From Planctomycetaceae bacterium (GTDB lineage Bacteria > Planctomycetota > Planctomycetia > Pirellulales > Pirellulaceae): a DNA stretch of 64,000 nucleotides. Positions within the stretch are counted from its first letter, which is position 1, and each line of letters starts with the position of its first letter. The translations under genes and the position numbers were made by a program. The stretch covers positions 1 to 64,000 of the forward strand of contig JAIYDN010000088.1 of assembly GCA_027487485.1 (NCBI GenBank), written 5' to 3'. The notes beneath the pieces were generated by a model. That model was not told the DNA's origin, made no database searches, and saw only the letters and a list, made by a program, of their open reading frames with translations. Positions 25,868 to 53,196 of the stretch are shown in pieces.

Positions 25868-26317
25868 TGAATCGAATACATACCTTGGGTCGTATTCAAC
25901 CTCATGTTTAGTAAGCATCTTCAAATACTCATCTTCGAAGGTCTGCTTCTTGTGATGCTCCATCTGCTTTTCAATATAAGCAACCACAGCATCTTTGACT
26001 GAGACGCTGACCGTAAAGGCGCCGTATCCGTCTTGCCATCCAAACTTACGGATAAAGCCGCTAGTGTCATTGATGTGTTTACTAGTATTGGCTTTGAGTT
26101 GCCCAACAAAGTCGGCGACCGTGATCTTCGATGGAATACGAACGAGCAAGTGAGCATGGTCATAGAAACCACCAACCTTGATCGCAAAGCCGCTTAAGTC
26201 CTTGGCCGTGCCTGCCATGTATGCAAAAACATTCTCCCTTAAACCGTCGGTGAGCCATGGCTGGCGGTTCTTGGTACTGAAAACGATGTGGTAAAGAAGT
26301 TGCTGATGAGTGCTCAT
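25835..26317 (-). CDS. REP-associated tyrosine transposase (RAYT, IS200/IS605 Y1 family)
   Basis: This 160-residue single-domain HUH nuclease has the metal-binding pair His54-x-His56 in YDHAHLLVRIP. The catalytic tyrosine is probably Tyr114 in VVAYIEKQMEHHKKQTF. It also has LYHIVFSTKNRQPWL at the N-terminus and FGWQDGYGAFTVS. RAYTs cut and join single-stranded DNA at REP palindromes. The gene lies between clusters of palindromic repeats (25618-25867, 26399-26695, 26723-26945), and its last codons (SPSGFSSF) are inside one. No partner TnpB is present. Confidence 0.88.
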   Translation of the reverse strand: MSTHQQLLYHIVFSTKNRQPWLTDGLRENVFAYMAGTAKDLSGFAIKVGGFYDHAHLLVRIPSKITVADFVGQLKANTSKHINDTSGFIRKFGWQDGYGAFTVSVSVKDAVVAYIEKQMEHHKKQTFEDEYLKMLTKHEVEYDPRYVFDSCVSPSGFSSF

Positions 26318-45935: not shown

Positions 45936-46460
45936 ATGGACGAACAATCACAACAAGCGATTCGATACTGGACGCTGGCGCAGCCGGCAGTATCCGCATA
46001 TGTCGCGGCTGTCGTTCGGGATTTCCGAGATCGGGACGATGTCCTACAGTCAATTTCCGTTGCAGTACTAGAGTCGTTTTCTTCCTTTGACACTACTCGG
46101 CCCTTCGTGGCTTGGGCTATGGGAATCGCTCGAAAACAAATCGGTACCTACCTGCGCGAGCGAAAGCGCAATCGATTGGTCTTTGATGCGGAAACTATTG
46201 ACTCGCTCGCCGTGGCCTATGAACAGGTTGAATCGGAACAGACTCGCAAGCTTGACTCGCTCCACGAATGCCTGTCCAAGCTGGAAGGTCGTGCCCGTCA
46301 ATTGTGTGAACTGCGATATCAGAACGATTTGAAACCATTAGCGATCGCTTCGTTGCTAGGCATGACGCCGAACACGGTTGCCAAGTCGCTTCAACGTATT
46401 CGCGATCAACTGCGACAGTGTATTGATCGTCATGCCGCGATCGATGGAGGACATTCGTGA
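45936..46460 (+). CDS. ECF-type RNA polymerase sigma factor
   Basis: This 174-residue protein has region 2 (YVAAVVRDFRDRDDVLQSIS, PFVAWAMGIARKQIGTYLRE). Region 4 is ECLSKLEGRARQLCELRYQN, KPLAIASLLGMTPNTVAKSL. It is of the planctomycete FecI-like type. Its stop overlaps the start of an anti-sigma-like gene (GTG 46457 or ATG 46460), so the two are coupled. Confidence 0.88.
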   Translation: MDEQSQQAIRYWTLAQPAVSAYVAAVVRDFRDRDDVLQSISVAVLESFSSFDTTRPFVAWAMGIARKQIGTYLRERKRNRLVFDAETIDSLAVAYEQVESEQTRKLDSLHECLSKLEGRARQLCELRYQNDLKPLAIASLLGMTPNTVAKSLQRIRDQLRQCIDRHAAIDGGHS

Positions 46461-47632
46461 TGAGTGACCCTCGAGAACTTATCGATGGCTATTTCGATGA
46501 TACCTTGACTGCTGAGCAGCTTGAAGCATTGAGTCATTGGATCAAGGCAGCCCCGACGAACGCTCTCACTTTTGCAAATGCTTCATTACTTCACGACCGC
46601 CTGTATAGCACGCTCGCAATCGCTGACAAAGCTCCTTCCAACTTCACCCTCCCTCGGGAGAGTCGCGGAGGAGATTACGACGACGCGGGTGAGGGCTACG
46701 ATGGCGACTTGGTTGACCATGCGAACCCCTCCCCGAAGGCTCGTTCCTCGCCTTCGACCCTCCCGGGGGAGGGTGAAAAAACCATGCCTTCGACCCTCCC
46801 GGGGGAGGGTGAAGCAGAGACGCATTGGGCTATCTCGACTTCAAGTCCAAATAAACCTGGCAAGACGGAGCGAGCTCTGCTTTGGAAAACAACGGCGGCG
46901 GCAGCGGTGCTCGTTGCTGGGCTTGTAATACTCTGGTTTAGTATCGGTACGCCATCGGCTTCAGCCGCAATTCGTGAACTCGATCGAATCATCGTTAACA
47001 GTATTCGGCCAAAAGATCGAACCTATGAGATCGTTGTAGAAGACATCGCAAAAGAACGCCAAGGTAATCGCCCGGAGACACGTCGACCGCCCAAGCCGCC
47101 GCTGGACGGAGCCACTTTGCACGTGCGATCAAATAACCAGTTTGTGCTCCTGCGCAAAACGCAGGAAGGATTGCCGTTCATCACTGGCAGCAACGGTCAA
47201 CAAAGCTGGGCAGTCAACCCACGAGGACCAGTCAGGGTCAGTTCGGATATCCATCGCTTCGATCATGATCTACCTGGACACGAGACCTCGATCCCTCTTA
47301 CGAACCTGCACGAGGGACTCCAGCAACTCAAGCGTGCTTACAACCTGACTTTCTCTACGCTCGGTCCAGAAGAGGTTGCCCCTGAACAAGGCCACGACGC
47401 ACGTTTATTAATTGCCGTGAAGAAGCCAAGAGAGCGAGGGCCTCAGCGTGTTGAAATCGTCTACGATTTAACGACAGGACAAATCCTTCGCATGCGTTTC
47501 GTTCAGATGCCCTATGGCCCGGACCGCCTGGATCTACGCTTGTCGCTGCTCAGCGAAAAGGAATTGGAAGCAGATTTCTTCGAGCACACAAGCCATCACG
47601 CCCCGGACCGCAAGATTGAAATGGAGAATTGA
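46460..47632 (+). CDS. Anti-sigma-like (FecR-type) membrane protein invaded by repeats
   Basis: This 390-residue protein has an N-terminal anti-sigma-like helical domain (LIDGYFDDTLTAEQLEALSH, residues 1-60). A linker of about 58 residues comes from repeat DNA (62-119, with STLPGEGEKTMPSTLPGEGE). One membrane helix lies at about 144-161. An extracytoplasmic LolA-like region ends in VEIVYDLTTGQILRMRFVQM. It presumably holds the adjacent sigma factor. The repeat-coded linker is in frame, so the protein appears intact. GTG 46457 is an alternative start. Confidence 0.75.
   Translation: MSDPRELIDGYFDDTLTAEQLEALSHWIKAAPTNALTFANASLLHDRLYSTLAIADKAPSNFTLPRESRGGDYDDAGEGYDGDLVDHANPSPKARSSPSTLPGEGEKTMPSTLPGEGEAETHWAISTSSPNKPGKTERALLWKTTAAAAVLVAGLVILWFSIGTPSASAAIRELDRIIVNSIRPKDRTYEIVVEDIAKERQGNRPETRRPPKPPLDGATLHVRSNNQFVLLRKTQEGLPFITGSNGQQSWAVNPRGPVRVSSDIHRFDHDLPGHETSIPLTNLHEGLQQLKRAYNLTFSTLGPEEVAPEQGHDARLLIAVKKPRERGPQRVEIVYDLTTGQILRMRFVQMPYGPDRLDLRLSLLSEKELEADFFEHTSHHAPDRKIEMEN
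46640..46815 (+). repeat. DUF559-linked repeat inserted in frame in a coding sequence
   Basis: CCCCTCCCCG at 46726-46735 is followed by GGCTCGTTCCTCGCC and two copies of CTTCGACCCTCCCGGGGGAG (continuing GGTGAA). This is the left half of the 151-bp repeats at 50891-51854. A degenerate unit (CACCCTCCCTCGGGAGAG) lies just before it. All of it is translated within the anti-sigma-like gene without stops. Confidence 0.75.
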
Positions 47633-47634
47633 TA

Positions 47635-49029
47635 ATGAAATGGATGATGCAAATTGCGAAGCTTATTATGGCTCTACATGCCATATACATTTTGAGTGGT
47701 TTGCCCGCACAATCAGCTGAGCGGCCCAATTTCATCTTTATGCTATCCGATGACCAAGGATGGAACGGATTGTCAATTGCTATGCATCCTGAAGTGGCAG
47801 GTTCGAAAGGCGAAATCTTCCACACGCCCAATCTAGAGCGATTGGCCTCGCAAGGCATGCGATTCTCGTCAGCCTATGCCCCAGCGCCGGTTTGTTCACC
47901 TACTCGTATCTGTCTTCAAACGGGGAAGAGCCCTGCTCAGCTTCATTGGACTAAAGCAGCGCCGGCAGTCACTGGCCGAAAGTTGACCGAACCACGCTTG
48001 ATCAAAGATATGAGCAAAGAGGAAATCACCATTGGCGAACTCTTGAAAAATGCCGGCTACACCACAGCCCACTATGGCAAATGGCATATTGCTGGGGGAG
48101 GACCAGGCGCTCATGGATACGACGAACACGATGGCGATACTGGGAATGAAAACGCATTTAAATATACAGACCCCAATCCCGTCGACATTTTCGGAATGGC
48201 CGAGCGTGCAACCAAGTTTATGGAAAAGAGCCAACAGGCCAACAAGCCTTTTTACATTCAGCTGTCCTGGAATGCACTTCATGCAGCAGAATTGGCCAAC
48301 AAAGCCACATTGGCGAAGTATGAAAAGCTCTCAACGAGAAATGCAAGGCAAGCTGCCACCGCGGCAATCACGGAAGATCTTGACTCAGGCGTTGGCAAGG
48401 TGATGGAAGCTGTCGAGCGATTGGGACTCAGCAAAAACACATACATCATTTACATGTCCGACAACGGTTCAGGCAGTGGCGGGCGGCGCGGCGGACTCAG
48501 CGGTGGCAAAGGTTCTCTCTGGGAGGGCGGTATTCGCGTGCCTCTCATCGTCCGTGGGCCTGGAGTTGATGCAAATTCTTGGTGTCATACTCCCGTAGTC
48601 GGATACGATATGCTTCCGACTTTCTGTGCACTTGCAGGAATACCTGCTACGAAATTGCCCAATGGTCTTGAAGGTGGAAGCATCACGAGTTTGCTTCACA
48701 CTAACGGCGAAGGTTCCGTGGAACGGCAGCGTGAAGAGATTGTATTTCACTTTCCACATTATCAAAGCGATGATGGGCCACATTCAGCGATTCGTCTTGG
48801 GAACCTTAAGTTGATGCATTTCTACGAAGATGATCGCATCGCTTTATTTGACCTTGCTAAGGACATCAGCGAACGAAATGACTTGGCCCAACAAATGCCC
48901 CGTGTAGCTCAAATGCTGAAAGGTCGATTGGACCAGTATTTGGTTGCCATCAACGCCCAATTGCCAACGCTTAATCCGAATTTTGATTCTTCCAAGCCAG
49001 TTGCGCCACGTACATCCAAACGACGATGA
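47635..49029 (+). CDS. Sulfatase with canonical C-x-P-x-R
   Basis: This 464-residue exported sulfatase starts at ATG 47635 with a signal peptide (KLIMALHAIYILSGLPAQSA). It shows RPNFIFMLSDDQGWNGLSIA, PVCSPTRICLQTGKSP (Cys87, Arg91), THYGKWH-like AHYGKWHIAGGG and YIIYMSDNGSGSGGRRGGLS. It begins just after the anti-sigma-like gene and its stop overlaps the next frame, so it may be transcribed with the sigma/anti-sigma pair and be part of its regulon. Confidence 0.9.
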   Translation: MKWMMQIAKLIMALHAIYILSGLPAQSAERPNFIFMLSDDQGWNGLSIAMHPEVAGSKGEIFHTPNLERLASQGMRFSSAYAPAPVCSPTRICLQTGKSPAQLHWTKAAPAVTGRKLTEPRLIKDMSKEEITIGELLKNAGYTTAHYGKWHIAGGGPGAHGYDEHDGDTGNENAFKYTDPNPVDIFGMAERATKFMEKSQQANKPFYIQLSWNALHAAELANKATLAKYEKLSTRNARQAATAAITEDLDSGVGKVMEAVERLGLSKNTYIIYMSDNGSGSGGRRGGLSGGKGSLWEGGIRVPLIVRGPGVDANSWCHTPVVGYDMLPTFCALAGIPATKLPNGLEGGSITSLLHTNGEGSVERQREEIVFHFPHYQSDDGPHSAIRLGNLKLMHFYEDDRIALFDLAKDISERNDLAQQMPRVAQMLKGRLDQYLVAINAQLPTLNPNFDSSKPVAPRTSKRR

Positions 49030-49078
49030 GAACCAGCAAATATAAAAACAAGAAACAAGAAAAAGTACGTGGTCATTT

Positions 49079-49083
49079 AGGAG
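49079..49083 (+). promoter_or_regulatory. Shine-Dalgarno site deciding the YHYH-PEBP start
   Basis: AGGAG lies five bases before ATG 49089. The frame is open back to an ATG at 49026 that overlaps the sulfatase stop, but this site and the signal peptide after 49089 favour the internal start. Confidence 0.6.
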
Positions 49084-49088
49084 AAACA

Positions 49089-50888
49089 ATGAATCATCAA
49101 AAAGTTTTTGAGAGTCTCATAGGGATCGCACTTCTCTTCACCGGAGCGGTTTCACAAGCCCACGAAGGTCACGAGCATGGTCCGACCGATCCGAGCGTCC
49201 GGGCATTTACTTTTGCAGACACAGGAGCACATATCCATGGTGCTTACATGGCTTCGCGCGATGGTAAGGTACAAGTCCGCCGGACGGATGGAACTGTTGT
49301 CTCACTTGAGATCGAGAAACTTACGGTCTTGGACAAGAAATGGATTGAGAAAAAGGCCGCGCAGGTGAAGGAGATCAATGAGAATACCATGCCAAGCAAC
49401 AGTTCAATAAAACTTGTAGTCGCCAATGTGCCAAGCAGACCAGCGATCGCGGAAACATTCGAGCCTTTCGCAAAGCTCAAAGCTATCCAATACCGACAAG
49501 ATGACAAGTTCTTTTACGTTGAATCCAACTCAATGCCCGATCATCGCATGATGGTTGGAATCACGGCATGGCAACAGCAAGTTCCGATTCCTCAACCCTA
49601 TTTTGGCGATAACGCTTGGCGAATTCCGCTCGAACCTGTAGTTGCAAAGAATCCCATGTCGGCCAAGTCACACTTCTTTCGAGGTGCAATTGCATTGGCC
49701 GCTAATGGAGTTCCGATCTTTAATCCGATCAAGAATGACGGACGGACTGATACGCTTCTTGCGGGCGAACTGGACGAGTTTGGCGGCCACTGTGGTCGTG
49801 GGGATGATTACCACTATCATATCGCCCCCACACATTTGCAACAGATTGTCGGCAAAGACAAACCGATCGCTTACGCGCTCGATGGTTATCCCATTTACGG
49901 TTACACCGAACCGGACGGTTCGGAGGTCCGAGGGCTCGACGTGTTCAACGGGCATTCCACACCAGAACTCGGTTACCATTATCATGCGACCAAGAGTTAC
50001 CCCTATCTCAACGGCGGATTCCATGGTGAAGTGAAGGAAGTCGATGGTCAAGTAGACCCACAACCAAGAGCTGGTGGAGTGCGAGAAGCATTGCCGCCGC
50101 TGCGAGGAGCGAAGATTACAGGCTTTGAGTCGAAGGACAACAAGAGCTTTAGTCTCAAGGTTGAAGTTGGCCGCGAGACTCGGTATGTCAATTACCTTCT
50201 CAACGAGAACGGTTCGGTGAAATTTGACTTTGTGGATGGGAATGGCAGGGTGAAGTCCGAGACCTACTCACCACGACAACGCGGCCCAGGAGCTGGCGGC
50301 GGAGAACGAAGAGGTGGTCCTGGTGGCGGTAATGATCGACCGCCACGCAATGCACCACCTCGCAACGAACCACCGCGTAGAGAGCCGCCCCCACCACGCA
50401 ATGCACTTCAAAAGGACACAACATCGCCTAAGTCCAGTACTGGCTTTATTCTATCAAGTACGGCAATCGGCAGTGATGGACGCATTTCGTCCGAGTTCAC
50501 CTGCGATGGCAAAAGTGCATCGCCGCCGATTACATGGAAAGGTGCTCCAATTGGAACCAAGTCGGTTGCAATCAGTCTTTGGCATACTGCGCCGGATCAA
50601 GAGAAATCATATTGGTTGGTCTATAACATTCCTACGACTGTGGATCATCTCGACAAGAATGACAAAACGACGGGCACCGTCGGCTTGAACGACAGGAAGA
50701 AGTCCGGCTACGACCCCATGTGTTCGAAGGGCCCTGGGCCGAAGACATATCATATCACTCTTTATGCTCTTTCAACAGAAGTTAAGATCGCAAAGGGTAG
50801 CGACAATCGCGCCGCCTTCCTGAAGGCGATCAAGGACGTCACGCTGGCGGAAACGACTTTGGATTTTGTTTACGAGCGAGCGAAGTGA
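49089..50888 (+). CDS. SHD1-YHYH-PEBP fusion protein
   Basis: This 599-residue exported protein has a signal peptide (ESLIGIALLFTGAVSQA) and a His-rich start (HEGHEHG). An SHD1-like domain follows at about 55-90 (GKVQVRRTDGTVVSLEIEKL). The YHYH domain spans about 150-380, with the name-giving motif at 241-244 and 296-299 and IAYALDGYPIYGYTEPDGSE. A Pro/Arg/Gly-rich linker leads to a C-terminal PEBP/YbhB-like domain (about 452-599: ISSEFTCDGKSASPPITWKG, DPMCSKGPGPKTYHITLYAL). The domains suggest a secreted, perhaps metal- or ligand-binding protein. It sits downstream of a sulfatase, probably in the same transcript. Confidence 0.87.
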   Translation: MNHQKVFESLIGIALLFTGAVSQAHEGHEHGPTDPSVRAFTFADTGAHIHGAYMASRDGKVQVRRTDGTVVSLEIEKLTVLDKKWIEKKAAQVKEINENTMPSNSSIKLVVANVPSRPAIAETFEPFAKLKAIQYRQDDKFFYVESNSMPDHRMMVGITAWQQQVPIPQPYFGDNAWRIPLEPVVAKNPMSAKSHFFRGAIALAANGVPIFNPIKNDGRTDTLLAGELDEFGGHCGRGDDYHYHIAPTHLQQIVGKDKPIAYALDGYPIYGYTEPDGSEVRGLDVFNGHSTPELGYHYHATKSYPYLNGGFHGEVKEVDGQVDPQPRAGGVREALPPLRGAKITGFESKDNKSFSLKVEVGRETRYVNYLLNENGSVKFDFVDGNGRVKSETYSPRQRGPGAGGGERRGGPGGGNDRPPRNAPPRNEPPRREPPPPRNALQKDTTSPKSSTGFILSSTAIGSDGRISSEFTCDGKSASPPITWKGAPIGTKSVAISLWHTAPDQEKSYWLVYNIPTTVDHLDKNDKTTGTVGLNDRKKSGYDPMCSKGPGPKTYHITLYALSTEVKIAKGSDNRAAFLKAIKDVTLAETTLDFVYERAK

Positions 50889-50890
50889 AG

Positions 50891-51041
50891 CCCCTCCCCG
50901 GAGCCTCGTTCCTCGTCTTCGACCCTCCCCGGGGGAGGGTTAATGAAAATTGCCCTTACACACCGGAGACCACCACATTGCTAAAATTAACCCTCCCCTA
51001 TGGGGAGGGTCGGATGCGAGGAACGAGCAGACGGGGAGGGG
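50891..51041. repeat. 151-bp composite inverted repeat, unit A
   Basis: Outer arms CCCCTCCCCG plus AGCCTCGTTCCTCG pair with CGAGGAACGAGCAG plus CGGGGAGGGG. Two smaller palindromes sit inside: ACCCTCCCCGGGGGAGGGT and ACCCTCCCCTATGGGGAGGG plus T. A spacer of about 50 bases (CCCTTACACACCGGAGACCA) is also shared with unit B. Confidence 0.85.
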
Positions 51042-51074
51042 AAGACGTCAGCTATTCGAATCAGATCAATCAAA

Positions 51075-51124
51075 ATGCCAACCGCCGCACCTTCGAGCGC
51101 GATCAAGGTGGTTTGGTATGAAGG
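51075..51124 (+). pseudogene. Internally deleted DUF559 gene between repeat units A and B
   Basis: ATGCCAACCGCCGCACCTTC (51075 on) matches the start of the DUF559 gene, ATGACCAACCGCCGCATCTT (51316 on). The following GGTGGTTTGGTATGAAGG matches GGTGGTTCGGGTATGAAGG near the end of that gene (51679 on). Everything between, about 330 bases of the intact gene, is missing. Flanking bases on both sides (GACGTCA..TATTC before, the repeat after) also match. This is the relic of a second gene copy. Confidence 0.7.
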
Positions 51125-51131
51125 CAGTCCT

Positions 51132-51282
51132 CCCCTCCCCGAAGCCTTGTTCCTCGGCTTCGCCCCTCCCCGAGGGAGGGTTAAAAGAGCTCGCCCTTAC
51201 CCACCGGAGACCACCACGCTGTTAAAATTAACCCTCCCCTGTGGGGAGGGTCGGCTGCGAGGAACGAGCAGCCGGGGAGGGG
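51132..51282. repeat. 151-bp composite inverted repeat, unit B
   Basis: Same arms and internal palindromes as unit A, same length, and the shared spacer CCCTTACCCACCGGAGACCA. It ends 33 bases before the DUF559 start codon. Confidence 0.85.
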
Positions 51283-51315
51283 ACGACGTCACTTATTCAA
51301 AATTAACAGAACAGA

Positions 51316-51756
51316 ATGACCAACCGCCGCATCTTCAACGCACGCGAAAATCGTAAACGCAGCACGACCTCCGAGGGATTGCTATGGAGTGTCCTAAGGG
51401 CCAATCAACTTTGCAATTTGAAATTTCGACGCGAACATCCTATTGGGAACTTTATCGCCGACTTCGCTTGCGAAGCAAAGAAGTTGGTCGTGGAGATCGA
51501 TGGTGGTTACCACGACCAGATAGGAGAGCAAGACATCGAACGTGAGGGAAGACTGAGAGCTCTCGGTTGGGATGTGATCCGCTTCACGGATGAAGAGGTT
51601 GAACAAGACGCGGAAGCTGTGGCACACGCGATCGCCAAGCATCTGCAGTTGGAGTATTCGTTTAATAAACGGAATGGCGGTGGTTCGGGTATGAAGGTAC
51701 TCGGCCCCTCCCCGAAGCCTCGTTCCTCGTCTTCGACCCTCCCGGGGGAGGGTTAA
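51316..51756 (+). CDS. DUF559 (Vsr-like) endonuclease domain protein
   Basis: This 146-residue protein has a PD-(D/E)xK/Vsr-type fold: TSEGLLWSVLRANQLCNLKF (Glu20), GNFIADFACEAKKLVVEIDG (Asp49, Glu60, Asp62) and REGRLRALGWDVIRFTDEEV. The spacing of acidic residues fits a nuclease active site. It has no signal peptide. From about residue 130 onward it is coded by repeat unit C (PSPKPRSSSSTLPGEG). It lies between repeat units B and C, and a deleted copy of the same gene lies between A and B. DUF559 proteins have no firmly established role. Confidence 0.85.
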   Translation: MTNRRIFNARENRKRSTTSEGLLWSVLRANQLCNLKFRREHPIGNFIADFACEAKKLVVEIDGGYHDQIGEQDIEREGRLRALGWDVIRFTDEEVEQDAEAVAHAIAKHLQLEYSFNKRNGGGSGMKVLGPSPKPRSSSSTLPGEG

Positions 51757-51854
51757 AAGAGCTAGCCCTTACACACAGAAAACTAGCATGCCACTAAAAT
51801 CAACCCTCCCCTATGGGGAGGGTCGGCTGCGAGGAACGAGCAGCCGGGGAGGGG
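51705..51854. repeat. 150-bp composite inverted repeat, unit C
   Basis: Third unit, with the same outer arms and inner palindromes as A and B but a more diverged spacer (CCCTTACACACAGAAAACTA). It begins inside the DUF559 gene, which stops within the first inner palindrome. Confidence 0.85.
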
Positions 51855-51903: not shown

Positions 51904-53058
51904 TTACCAATAGTCCAGCCAAAGTGAGTCACTGATTGGCAACCCCTGTGGCGTTAAGCGAATGTGGCCTTGGTGCCACTCCAAAAACCCCAATTCGATG
52001 TGTTTGGGAATCTGCTGTGCGATGGCTTTTATGGCCTCAGATTCACCGACGCTAGCGAGCGCACTCCAGTCGATACCCTTTAGCTGACGCATACCGAAGA
52101 TAAATCGCTCGCGAGTTCGTGTTGACCAGTCGAGTGCTTGCGACTCGGCGATGGGGGACAGCCCTGCCTCCATGCGTTGAAGATACTTGAGCGTGCTGCG
52201 ATGATTGACCGTACGAGTACCATCCACATAGGCTGCAGCGCCTGGTCCAAAGCCCAGCCAGGAATCACCCTGCCAGTAAGTCTGGTTGTGGATGCACTCG
52301 CTTCCTGGTTTTGCAAAATTCGAAACTTCGTAGTGAATCATGCCGTGCTGCGTGAGTGTTTCAATAGCGTAGAGATACATCTCCAACTCGACCTCTTCCG
52401 TAACAGCAACAATCTGTCCCTTCTGCAGTTGCGACCAATAGTGAGCACCTTTCTCATAAGTTAGTCCATACGTGGATAGATGGCTTACACCGCGCGACGT
52501 AGCCATTCCCAAGTCGGATCGCCAAACTTGCATATCTTCACCGGGAACACCAAAGATCAAGTCAACCGAGACCTCATCGAACCACTGAGACGCGATATCG
52601 ATAGAATTGGCAAGTTGGTCGCCGGTATGGTCGCGACCGAGTGTCTTCAGTTTGGAAGCATCAAACGACTGGCCACCCAAACTAATTCGGTTGATGCCTT
52701 GATCGCGAAGAAGTTGACAAAGAGTCGGATCGATGTCTTGCGGATTCGCTTCGATACTCCATTCTCCATCGTCGGCCGGTGGAAGCCATTGGCGGATCAT
52801 CTCAAACAACCGTTCCATCGGTTCGCGTGGAAGCAGCGTTGGCGTTCCCCCACCAATGAAGATCGTTTTTACAGAGCGAGGATGACCAAGAGTCGTCAAT
52901 TCTTTTGAAACGGCCTCTACATAGCGATCTACCAAATCCAACCGATTCGCGACTACCGTAAAATTACAGTAGGGACAGCGCGAATGGCAGAACGGAACAT
53001 GGATATAGGCAGCCTTTGGAGATGACAAACTCTCTTTGGCACTGAGATTGATTTCCAT
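51904..53058 (-). CDS. hemW: Radical SAM heme chaperone HemW (coproporphyrinogen III oxidase-like)
   Basis: A 384-residue protein from ATG 53058; the frame is open 15 codons further. The radical SAM cluster is Cys24-x3-Cys28-x2-Cys31 in VPFCHSRCPYCNF. The residue two after the last Cys is Phe, as in HemW, not the extra Cys of true HemN oxidases. Other blocks are TIFIGGGTPTLLP, SIEANPQDIDPTLCQLLRDQ, GINRISLGGQSFDASKLKTL and VDLIFGVPGE. HemW inserts heme into membrane proteins rather than making coproporphyrinogen. It is a single-gene unit. Confidence 0.88.
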   Translation of the reverse strand: MEINLSAKESLSSPKAAYIHVPFCHSRCPYCNFTVVANRLDLVDRYVEAVSKELTTLGHPRSVKTIFIGGGTPTLLPREPMERLFEMIRQWLPPADDGEWSIEANPQDIDPTLCQLLRDQGINRISLGGQSFDASKLKTLGRDHTGDQLANSIDIASQWFDEVSVDLIFGVPGEDMQVWRSDLGMATSRGVSHLSTYGLTYEKGAHYWSQLQKGQIVAVTEEVELEMYLYAIETLTQHGMIHYEVSNFAKPGSECIHNQTYWQGDSWLGFGPGAAAYVDGTRTVNHRSTLKYLQRMEAGLSPIAESQALDWSTRTRERFIFGMRQLKGIDWSALASVGESEAIKAIAQQIPKHIELGFLEWHQGHIRLTPQGLPISDSLWLDYW

Positions 53059-53196
53059 AGTTCCGATGACGCGACAGTCGCTCCACCATGATGAGACCTT
53101 CAACGATGAATCTCAATCAGCGAGTTGCGGTGGAGCGATTTTTCTTTCTAGCAAGCGACAATGAAAGGACCCAAAACGACATTCTAGCATCTTCAG

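Follow-up and report, generated by a model that had tools for sequence, protein, structure and literature searches.

The 64,000-nucleotide stretch analysed here, referred to as the window, comprises positions 1 to 64,000 of contig JAIYDN010000088.1 from a Planctomycetaceae genome (assembly GCA_027487485.1; 7.49 Mb). It contains a small array of palindromic repeats that encloses a gene for a DUF559 nuclease. The order in the array is unit A (50891-51041), gene remnant, unit B (51132-51282), intact gene and unit C (51705-51854); the units have lengths of 151, 151 and 150 bp and are assigned to no strand. A genome search with unit B recovered units A and C over their entire length with 88% identity; a further full-length copy was not found. 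The ten alignments consisted of the three units, three inverted self-matches of units, and two partial arms, each on both strands. These partial arms lie at 46726-46779 of the window and at 68367-68425 of contig C1, the latter being a lone, diverged hairpin-tail copy with 75% identity (L011 1501-1559). The 151-bp family is low copy in its own genome, with three full units and partial copies.

Each unit carries two inner hairpins around a spacer of about 50 bp, and its halves are inverted copies of a hairpin and its tail. The hairpins are located at 50922-50940 and 50990-51010 in unit A, at about 51163-51181 and 51231-51251 in unit B, and at 51736-51753 and 51803-51823 in unit C. The outer arms form inverted repeats within the unit, 40 nt with 83% identity in unit A and 42 nt with 81% in unit C; unit B showed 70% identity over a 60-nt extension. 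Folded as single-stranded DNA (150 bases per unit), the three units yielded z-scores of -7.9, -4.9 and -8.6 relative to dinucleotide-shuffled sequences; for two control segments from this locus the values were +2.4 and -1.1. The three units described in an initial annotation of this DNA are thus real. Its term tandem array fits only in part, since the units are interspersed with the gene and the remnant and do not lie head to tail.

The intact gene (51316-51756, forward strand) encodes 146 amino acids. Its last codons and stop lie inside unit C, and the stop codon (51754-51756) adjoins the first hairpin of that unit. Between units A and B, the stretch 51042-51131 on the forward strand retains both ends of the same gene region with the middle deleted: 51044-51100 matches 51285-51341, the upstream stretch and the first codons, and 51107-51129 matches 51679-51702 in the 3' part. 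The alignment of the whole stretch to the gene scored 95.4, as compared with a mean of 78.9 (sd 3.6) and a maximum of 91.8 in 200 base shuffles. The intact gene, the gutted copy and the gene end within unit C had all been proposed in the initial annotation, and each was confirmed. The array is flanked by two convergent genes, one with YHYH and PBP domains (49026-50888, forward strand) and one HemW-like with radical SAM and HemN C-terminal domains (51904-53103, reverse strand).

The nuclease

In Pfam the gene product matched PF04480 (E 8e-33) and PF18741 only; it is a PD-(D/E)XK/Vsr-like nuclease. Its structure was predicted with a pLDDT of 87.9. The nearest solved structure is 3hrl, a putative endonuclease-like protein with 41% identity, followed by 3r3p_B, the catalytic domain of the homing endonuclease I-Bth0305I (E 1.9e-4, TM 0.74 by target length, 24% identity). 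The Vsr structure 1vsr was a weak match (E 0.065). An alignment of 25 diverse members revealed the invariant residues W24, R28, K36, F37, R39, D49, F50, E60, D62, H66, D73, R76 and R89 in the numbering of the window protein. By Pfam, the window gene lacks the HUH/Y1 domain (PF01797) of the transposases associated with repetitive extragenic palindromic (REP) sequences, the RAYTs, and its predicted fold is that of an endonuclease. Among the neighbours, the Pfam scan covered the two flanking genes, neither of which encodes a methyltransferase.

An earlier study detected Vsr with a YcjD profile and described TnsA of Tn7 as a PD-(D/E)XK protein belonging to a transposase (PMC1189080). EDxHD is known as a homing family (PMC6083498). 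Caulobacter mutants without the methyltransferase ScmA strictly require VsrA (CCNA_02930), a predicted Vsr with a DUF559 domain, for their DNA damage response (PMC12907096).

Modules in the genome and in the genus

The genome contains three DUF559 genes. All three lie between palindromic repeats, and each has a repeat family of its own: CCCTCCCC-type at the window, CCCTCTCC-type on contig C71 and CCCCTTCTCCTC-type on contig C75. DUF559 matches were present in 35 of 60 relatives. Flanking contexts were compared in 100 regions around selected standalone DUF559 matches; as a hairpin score of at least 11 misses the 9-bp stems of the window, lower scores and a comparison of the flanks were used instead.

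The largest clade of these nucleases (clade 0) is the best conserved. In most of its copies, found at unrelated genomic places, the domain has a hairpin to its left and to its right at a distance of 41-51 bp, and the hairpin-to-hairpin distance was 466-471 bp in the six copies measured. When clade-0 copies from different genomes with unrelated surroundings were aligned (55 alignments), similarity on the left ended 72-102 bp before the domain in 46 cases, at about the outer edge of the hairpin. On the right it ended 63-76 bp after the domain in 37 cases, again at about the outer hairpin edge, and earlier, at 40-46 bp, in ten. From left to right, a unit consists of hairpin, tail, ATG, gene, tail and hairpin, and in most of the copies read the stop codon comes just after. 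The inverted hairpin-tail ends of clade 0 bound the unit in the manner of the terminal inverted repeats of insertion sequences (IS) and miniature inverted-repeat transposable elements (MITEs). An inverted hairpin-tail pair with a spacer, the hallmark of REPINs (REP doublets forming hairpins), occurs in units A to C, in the units of genome G217 and in those of clade 0.

Tandem arrays with dead copies were found elsewhere in the genus. In G020 three DUF559 copies follow each other at a spacing of 681 bp, two of them with stops; the single-contig genome G005 holds clusters of four and three copies at about 0.8-0.9 kb spacing, and one of the four carries a stop. A module of repeat, nuclease gene and repeat that duplicates and decays, as the initial annotation had it, hence recurs at unrelated places with near-constant spacing and in tandem arrays with stop-bearing copies, and does so in several phyla. 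These recurrences support the annotation's proposal of such a module working like a RAYT among its REPs, in which the nuclease may help to spread the repeat.

The clade-0 palindrome, searched as CCCCTTCTCCTC(3-10)GAGGAGAAGGGG, occurred in 10 of 27 genus genomes and its reversed control in none of the 27. Nine of the ten hold a standalone DUF559 gene. Two further features were seen in other genomes. The flanks of one G217 DUF559 gene (L230 7790-8281) share a very long inverted repeat with a score of 311, which exceeds the usual hairpin ends in length. On contig C63 of G023 (L277, last 1500 bases) a long run of near-identical short GTCGTTGTAGGTGTG-like repeats lies beside a HemW orthologue.

Flanking repeats and nuclease lineage

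The association was quantified by comparing the 300 bp on the upstream side of a gene with the 300 bp on its downstream side, to which the final 90 bp of the open reading frame (ORF) were added; any direct or inverted local match with a score of at least 15 counted as a shared repeat. Three sets of loci were used: near (same genus, family and order), phylum, and many-phyla, the latter consisting of the best 80 of at least 585 confirmed loci. DUF559 ORFs longer than 260 amino acids (1, 1 and 13 of 47, 64 and 81) and ORFs less than 250 bp from a contig end were left out, which gave 43, 61 and 63 genes. A shared flank repeat was found at 35 of 43, 45 of 61 and 36 of 63 standalone DUF559 genes, in total 116 of 167. 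Among all control ORFs of the loci, a first pass gave 24/398, 19/546 and 16/700. Controls of at most 260 amino acids at more than 600 bp from DUF559 scored in 3/126, 7/165 and 3/217 cases, in total 13/508, with p between 1e-24 and 1e-26. The enrichment of repeats at DUF559 genes of other genomes, on which the initial annotation had made its proposal depend, is therefore present.

That gene-poor, repeat-rich regions make any small gene seem repeat-flanked is an explanation to which some scoring control ORFs, such as the 24 of 398 in the first pass of the near set, lend a little weight, and which the size-matched distant ORFs refute at this sample size. A stop codon in or just after a hairpin was seen at 9/43, 11/61 and 20/63 DUF559 genes versus 2/126, 8/165 and 8/217 controls; the difference is significant, the genes concerned are a minority, and the stop in the hairpin was dropped as a general DUF559 feature.

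The relation between repeat type and nuclease clade was assessed from upstream-versus-downstream comparisons only (score of at least 20), so that homology of the genes themselves cannot score; matches with a coverage below 70 model positions were left out, as were 15 pairs whose surroundings are related. Pairs of the same clade from different genomes with unrelated surroundings shared a repeat in 74 of 104 cases. Different-clade pairs did so in 1 of 13 cases within one genome and in 27 of 755 cases when the genomes differed as well. Judged by these comparisons, the repeats track the nuclease lineage and not the genome. If DUF559 genes lodged in any resident repeats, genes of the same genome would be expected to share them, which only the one pair in 13 does. 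The hairpin cognate to the module in an HMG-CoA lyase-like gene of G217, described below, had 35 forward matches in that genome and none in seven family relatives, a burst confined to one repeat family.

Hairpins at the genome level

Fourteen genomes taken from the 80 many-phyla loci, and hence picked for DUF559, contained 1 to 212 copies of CCCTCTCCC(2-12)GGGAGAGGG, with 0 or 1 in the reversed control. In a draw of 194 genomes from the phylum DUF559 was no selection criterion; genomes with a match below E 1e-15 were counted as positive, and hairpins of the pattern CCCYYYCC(2-14)GGRRRGGG were counted minus the reversed control, overlapping registers of one hairpin included. The hairpin excess had a median of 11 in the 40 DUF559-positive genomes, as compared with 0 in the 154 negative ones (p 1.3e-11), and the difference persisted within the seven families that hold both kinds of genome (permutation p 4e-4).

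RAYTs were considered as the hidden cause of these hairpins. Y1 transposases of the RAYT type were present in 131 of the 194 genomes. Among DUF559-negative genomes Y1 genes did not predict hairpins (p 0.34), and among Y1-positive genomes DUF559 did (39 versus 92 genomes, p 1.5e-9). A hidden role of RAYTs is unsupported: across the 194 genomes the hairpin excess tracks DUF559, not Y1. Flank repeats occurred at 19 of 30 top-scoring Y1_Tnp loci of the phylum, a rate similar to that of DUF559. This control took the best-scoring loci and flanks of 400 and 500 bp measured from the ends of the domain, windows slightly unlike those of the DUF559 test. The genome has 11 Y1_Tnp matches; at the two loci compared, the flanks show no relation to any of the three DUF559 repeats (scores 8-12). 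One Y1_Tnp gene lies in the window itself (25964-26305, reverse strand) and has a flank repeat of its own (direct score 97), unrelated to the DUF559 repeats.

Module-less locus and in-frame insertions

A comparison of loci with and without the module, as the initial annotation had suggested, was possible in G024, another species of the same genus. It has the same two convergent flanking genes at 89.6% and 84% DNA identity and no module. The spacer between the aligned parts is about 80 bp in G024. On the left, homology ends at the first base of unit A (50890/50891, with a one-base ambiguity; no strand); the right junction is diverged. No hairpin above a score of 7 was found in the G024 spacer, nor at the corresponding site in the relatives of an HMG-CoA lyase-like gene of G217. 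In that gene the sequence unit-DUF559-unit forms an uninterrupted in-frame insert, which seven of seven family relatives lack.

Repeats and whole modules were found in frame in further protein genes. In the window, a solo half-unit (46726-46812, forward strand) consisting of a tail and a hairpin, the hairpin repeated, is read in frame in the linker of ORF 46457-47632 on the forward strand; eight same-genus relatives align on both sides of it and are shorter across it. HsdR of four genomes contains a whole DUF559 domain in frame, flanked on either side by translated repeats. The insert immediately precedes the ATPase motif GxxWHTQGxGKS in G163 and lies about 25 residues further upstream in G231, G247 and G211. 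The latter three, which share one place, probably go back to one event. The split of the host domain around DUF559 was checked with Pfam for the HsdR of G163 and G231, and among the many-phyla loci it was also found in a valyl-tRNA synthetase (ValS) of a Rickettsiales genome and in TrpF of an alphaproteobacterial metagenome-assembled genome. An M14 peptidase-like ORF and two HsdS-like ORFs look similar, but have a Pfam host domain on one side only. In SpoU/TrmH-, RimM-, NAD synthase- and CbiC-type genes the module is joined at the 5' end.

A nuclease within a conserved gene whose relatives are uninterrupted, as is typical of homing genes, was thus found in the HMG-CoA lyase-like gene and, by the Pfam split, in ValS, TrpF and HsdR; the window copy is intergenic. 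Errors in draft assemblies could produce in-frame modules; against this argues that several independent genomes have reading frames that stay open across repeat, nuclease and host.

Two HsdR genes showed additional features. In contig C28 of G247 (L110, reverse strand) the 3'-side repeat of the insert is expanded about fourfold in frame (GRDGREGGITF). The HsdR gene at L107 289-3309 contains several more solo repeats in frame, with peptides of the PSPQPSPSGRG type, and seems to have been hit by repeats repeatedly.

Escherichia coli ycjD and other replicons

The DUF559 gene ycjD of Escherichia coli K-12 runs with its 3' end into a worn CCCTCTCCC hairpin, which is followed by a duplicated scrap of the gene's own 3' end and a second hairpin, as judged by eye. 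The decay pattern at this locus (L272 5030-5850) is like that of the window. Both ycjD and a second DUF559 allele lie between sapF and fabI. Places of any length that resemble the second hairpin of ycjD numbered 19 per E. coli genome in the median. According to PMC12817139, ycjD is found where its site does not contain the eefRABCD operon, and other genes replace it in other lineages. The E. coli hairpins seem to outlive ycjD. As a clean natural experiment E. coli was rejected: the hairpin is near-universal and both alleles occupy one locus, which yields no insertion-site series and leaves only the parallel anatomy.

The Azospirillum megaplasmids provided no empty allele, as seven of seven matching Azospirillum records cover the locus to 99-100%. 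With one many-phyla query, 3 of 50,697 phage records and 45 of 72,556 plasmid records matched, and 37 of these plasmids were called non-mobilizable; by that single query, phages and mobile plasmids are not evident as a vehicle.

Interpretation

The locus is best explained by a mobile palindromic element that is present here as a small array in partial decay. The sole gene of this element encodes a DUF559 nuclease similar to Vsr and I-Bth0305I, through which the element would spread. We assign this reading a probability of about two thirds. In its autonomous form the element would consist of hairpin, tail, gene, tail and hairpin, the two hairpins being about 0.47 kb apart in the best conserved clade. 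Its gene would start immediately inside the left tail and, for the majority of copies in that clade, stop just past the right hairpin. Where two ends become adjacent (tail-hairpin-spacer-hairpin-tail), a REPIN-like unit would arise, here the 151-bp repeat, and units without a gene would be non-autonomous derivatives. The nuclease may recognise its cognate hairpin, the tail or both, and cut there. Repair of the break by copying of the module or of a hairpin pair, with the repeats as homology, would then amount to a homing-like route that disseminates modules and solo repeats jointly. Where a gene lost its middle part, repeat-only units would be left.

What the comparisons establish at the level of DNA sequence is a wide, lineage-specific association of DUF559 with palindromes, the architecture of the module, a module-less orthologous locus, tandem decay and the in-frame presence in genes; cutting and movement by the nuclease are what we infer. 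Several observations weigh against this reading. A target-site duplication is not evident at the left junction in the window, and the right junction is diverged. G024 may have lost a module instead of the window genome having gained one, and the empty sites come from other species, which leaves room for an intermediate with a solo repeat. At the threshold used, 27 of the 63 many-phyla genes had no shared flank repeat; 25 of these 27 had a hairpin score of at least 9 on one or both sides. The pairing of repeat and lineage was complete in clade 0 (60/60), weaker in clade 1 (10/32) and clade 2 (2/8), and the sole pair of the window's own clade (window and G036) scored 16 against the threshold of 20. 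Furthermore, 7 of the 17 genus genomes without the clade-0 palindrome still hold standalone DUF559 genes of other kinds with other flanks.

Repeats were also found apart from the gene. In the phylum draw, an excess of at least 10 of the scanned hairpin occurred in 13 of 154 DUF559-negative genomes; the excess stayed under 5 in 15 of 40 positive genomes. Genome G010 carries the genus repeat and no DUF559, and 5376 of 5426 E. coli genomes contained the second, 47-bp hairpin of ycjD, counted where a place covered 80% or more of the query. The free occurrence of repeats in genomes lacking DUF559, which the initial annotation had named as evidence against its proposal, is therefore real in part, while 22 of the 40 positive genomes do carry an excess of at least 10. 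Such repeats may be relics or may be supplied in trans; they are evidence against a strict dependence on the nuclease.

The strongest alternative is that the repeats were resident, or were spread by another enzyme such as a RAYT, and that DUF559 invaded them as a parasitic homing gene, which would also result in repeat-gene-repeat. It draws on the homing endonuclease domain as second-best solved fold, on the direct copies of the whole unit between which the module stands, both in the window and in the gene of G217, on the gene-less solo repeats in frame and on the repeats of genomes without DUF559. We nevertheless consider it unlikely: the repeat type tracks the nuclease clade and not the genome, the two Y1 loci of the genome have unrelated flanks and Y1 genes do not predict hairpins, and the site held no hairpin above score 7 in either G024 or the HMG-CoA lyase relatives.

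Less probable still is a transposase-like activity, in which DUF559, alone or with a partner, excises the element and joins its ends like an IS, with the hairpins as terminal inverted repeats and the gene-less pairs as MITEs. The compact clade-0 copies with inverted hairpin ends near which similarity stops, the sharp left junction, and the precedent of TnsA, another PD-(D/E)XK protein in a transposase (PMC1189080), are in line with it. No target-site duplication was seen, however, no partner recombinase was noticed beside the modules (no systematic search was made), and the best folds are an endonuclease-like protein and a homing enzyme, not a transposase.

A chromosomal Vsr-type enzyme of repair or genome stability, beside which regulatory or terminator hairpins gather by chance, would agree with the need for VsrA in the DNA damage response of ScmA-less Caulobacter (PMC12907096) and with the weak fold match to 1vsr, but we regard it as very improbable, since it leaves unexplained the matching repeats on both sides, their pairing with lineage, the tandem arrays with dead copies, the patchy presence (good matches in 40 of 194 phylum genomes) and the in-frame presence in unrelated genes.

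A broader proposal, which we advance tentatively and at slightly less than even odds, would make DUF559 nucleases the engines of a bacteria-wide class of palindromes independent of RAYT/REP. The element would be a one-gene, hairpin-ended unit that homes by cleaving palindromes of its own type, seeds gene-less pairs and is tolerated in frame in essential genes by read-through, and E. coli ycjD with its hairpins would be a relic of it. Dispersed palindromes are common bacterial repeats, and for some of their families no enzyme is known. If a second class of enzyme belonged to palindromes of its own, the origin of such repeats could be tested, and a widespread protein family whose function is unknown would gain a role. 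It would also reveal a way for entire nuclease domains to get into the reading frames of housekeeping proteins.

Comparison with known systems

The arrangement as such is already known, and what appears to be new, by searches of the open PubMed Central literature, is a DUF559 enzyme tied to it; no paper connecting DUF559 with palindromic repeats was found there, subscription papers and preprints being outside the scope of these searches. By its predicted enzyme class the element is not a RAYT, and in its presumed working it can be likened to RAYT/REP systems or to a homing gene.

With RAYTs and their REPs and REPINs it shares the single small enzyme gene between hairpin repeats, the dispersed gene-less inverted pairs and the tie between repeat type and enzyme. 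An enzyme gene flanked by its own dispersed hairpins is what we observed for DUF559, the window's own family being low copy. In contrast to the HUH/Y1 transposase of RAYTs, DUF559 is a PD-(D/E)XK/Vsr-like nuclease. Its repeats are mostly pyrimidine/purine hairpins, unlike RAYT REPs, and no GTAG tag was present at the hairpins read, among which no systematic scan was made. Whole DUF559 modules in frame inside protein genes are a further difference.

Vsr-like homing endonucleases (I-Bth0305I, 3r3p) and other free-standing homing genes resemble the element in the second-best fold and in the presence of the module inside conserved genes. Unlike homing genes of the I-Bth0305I type, DUF559 is flanked by dispersed palindromes and occurs at many unrelated chromosomal sites. 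The six DUF559 loci scanned contained no Rfam family and hence no known self-splicing intron; inteins were not searched for.

Caulobacter VsrA (CCNA_02930) belongs to the same DUF559 domain family, but has been studied as a putative repair enzyme (PMC12907096). CGTC-tagged REPs, which according to one survey have no known enzyme (PMC3733652), and the BoxC elements of E. coli, with 22-32 copies of 50-56 nt (PMC2267715), are likewise dispersed palindromes, and ycjD adjoins a hairpin with a duplicated remnant of its 3' end. The assignment of this hairpin to BoxC is a guess from copy number. CGTC REPs differ from the DUF559 repeats in that their stems start with A-T pairs and carry the CGTC tag. 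The Rickettsia palindromic elements (RPEs), likened here by description only, are palindromic repeats of about 150 bp, many of them in frame in protein genes (PMC10969869). The RPE passages of that source report no nuclease, whereas in the DUF559 elements the nuclease module itself stands in frame.

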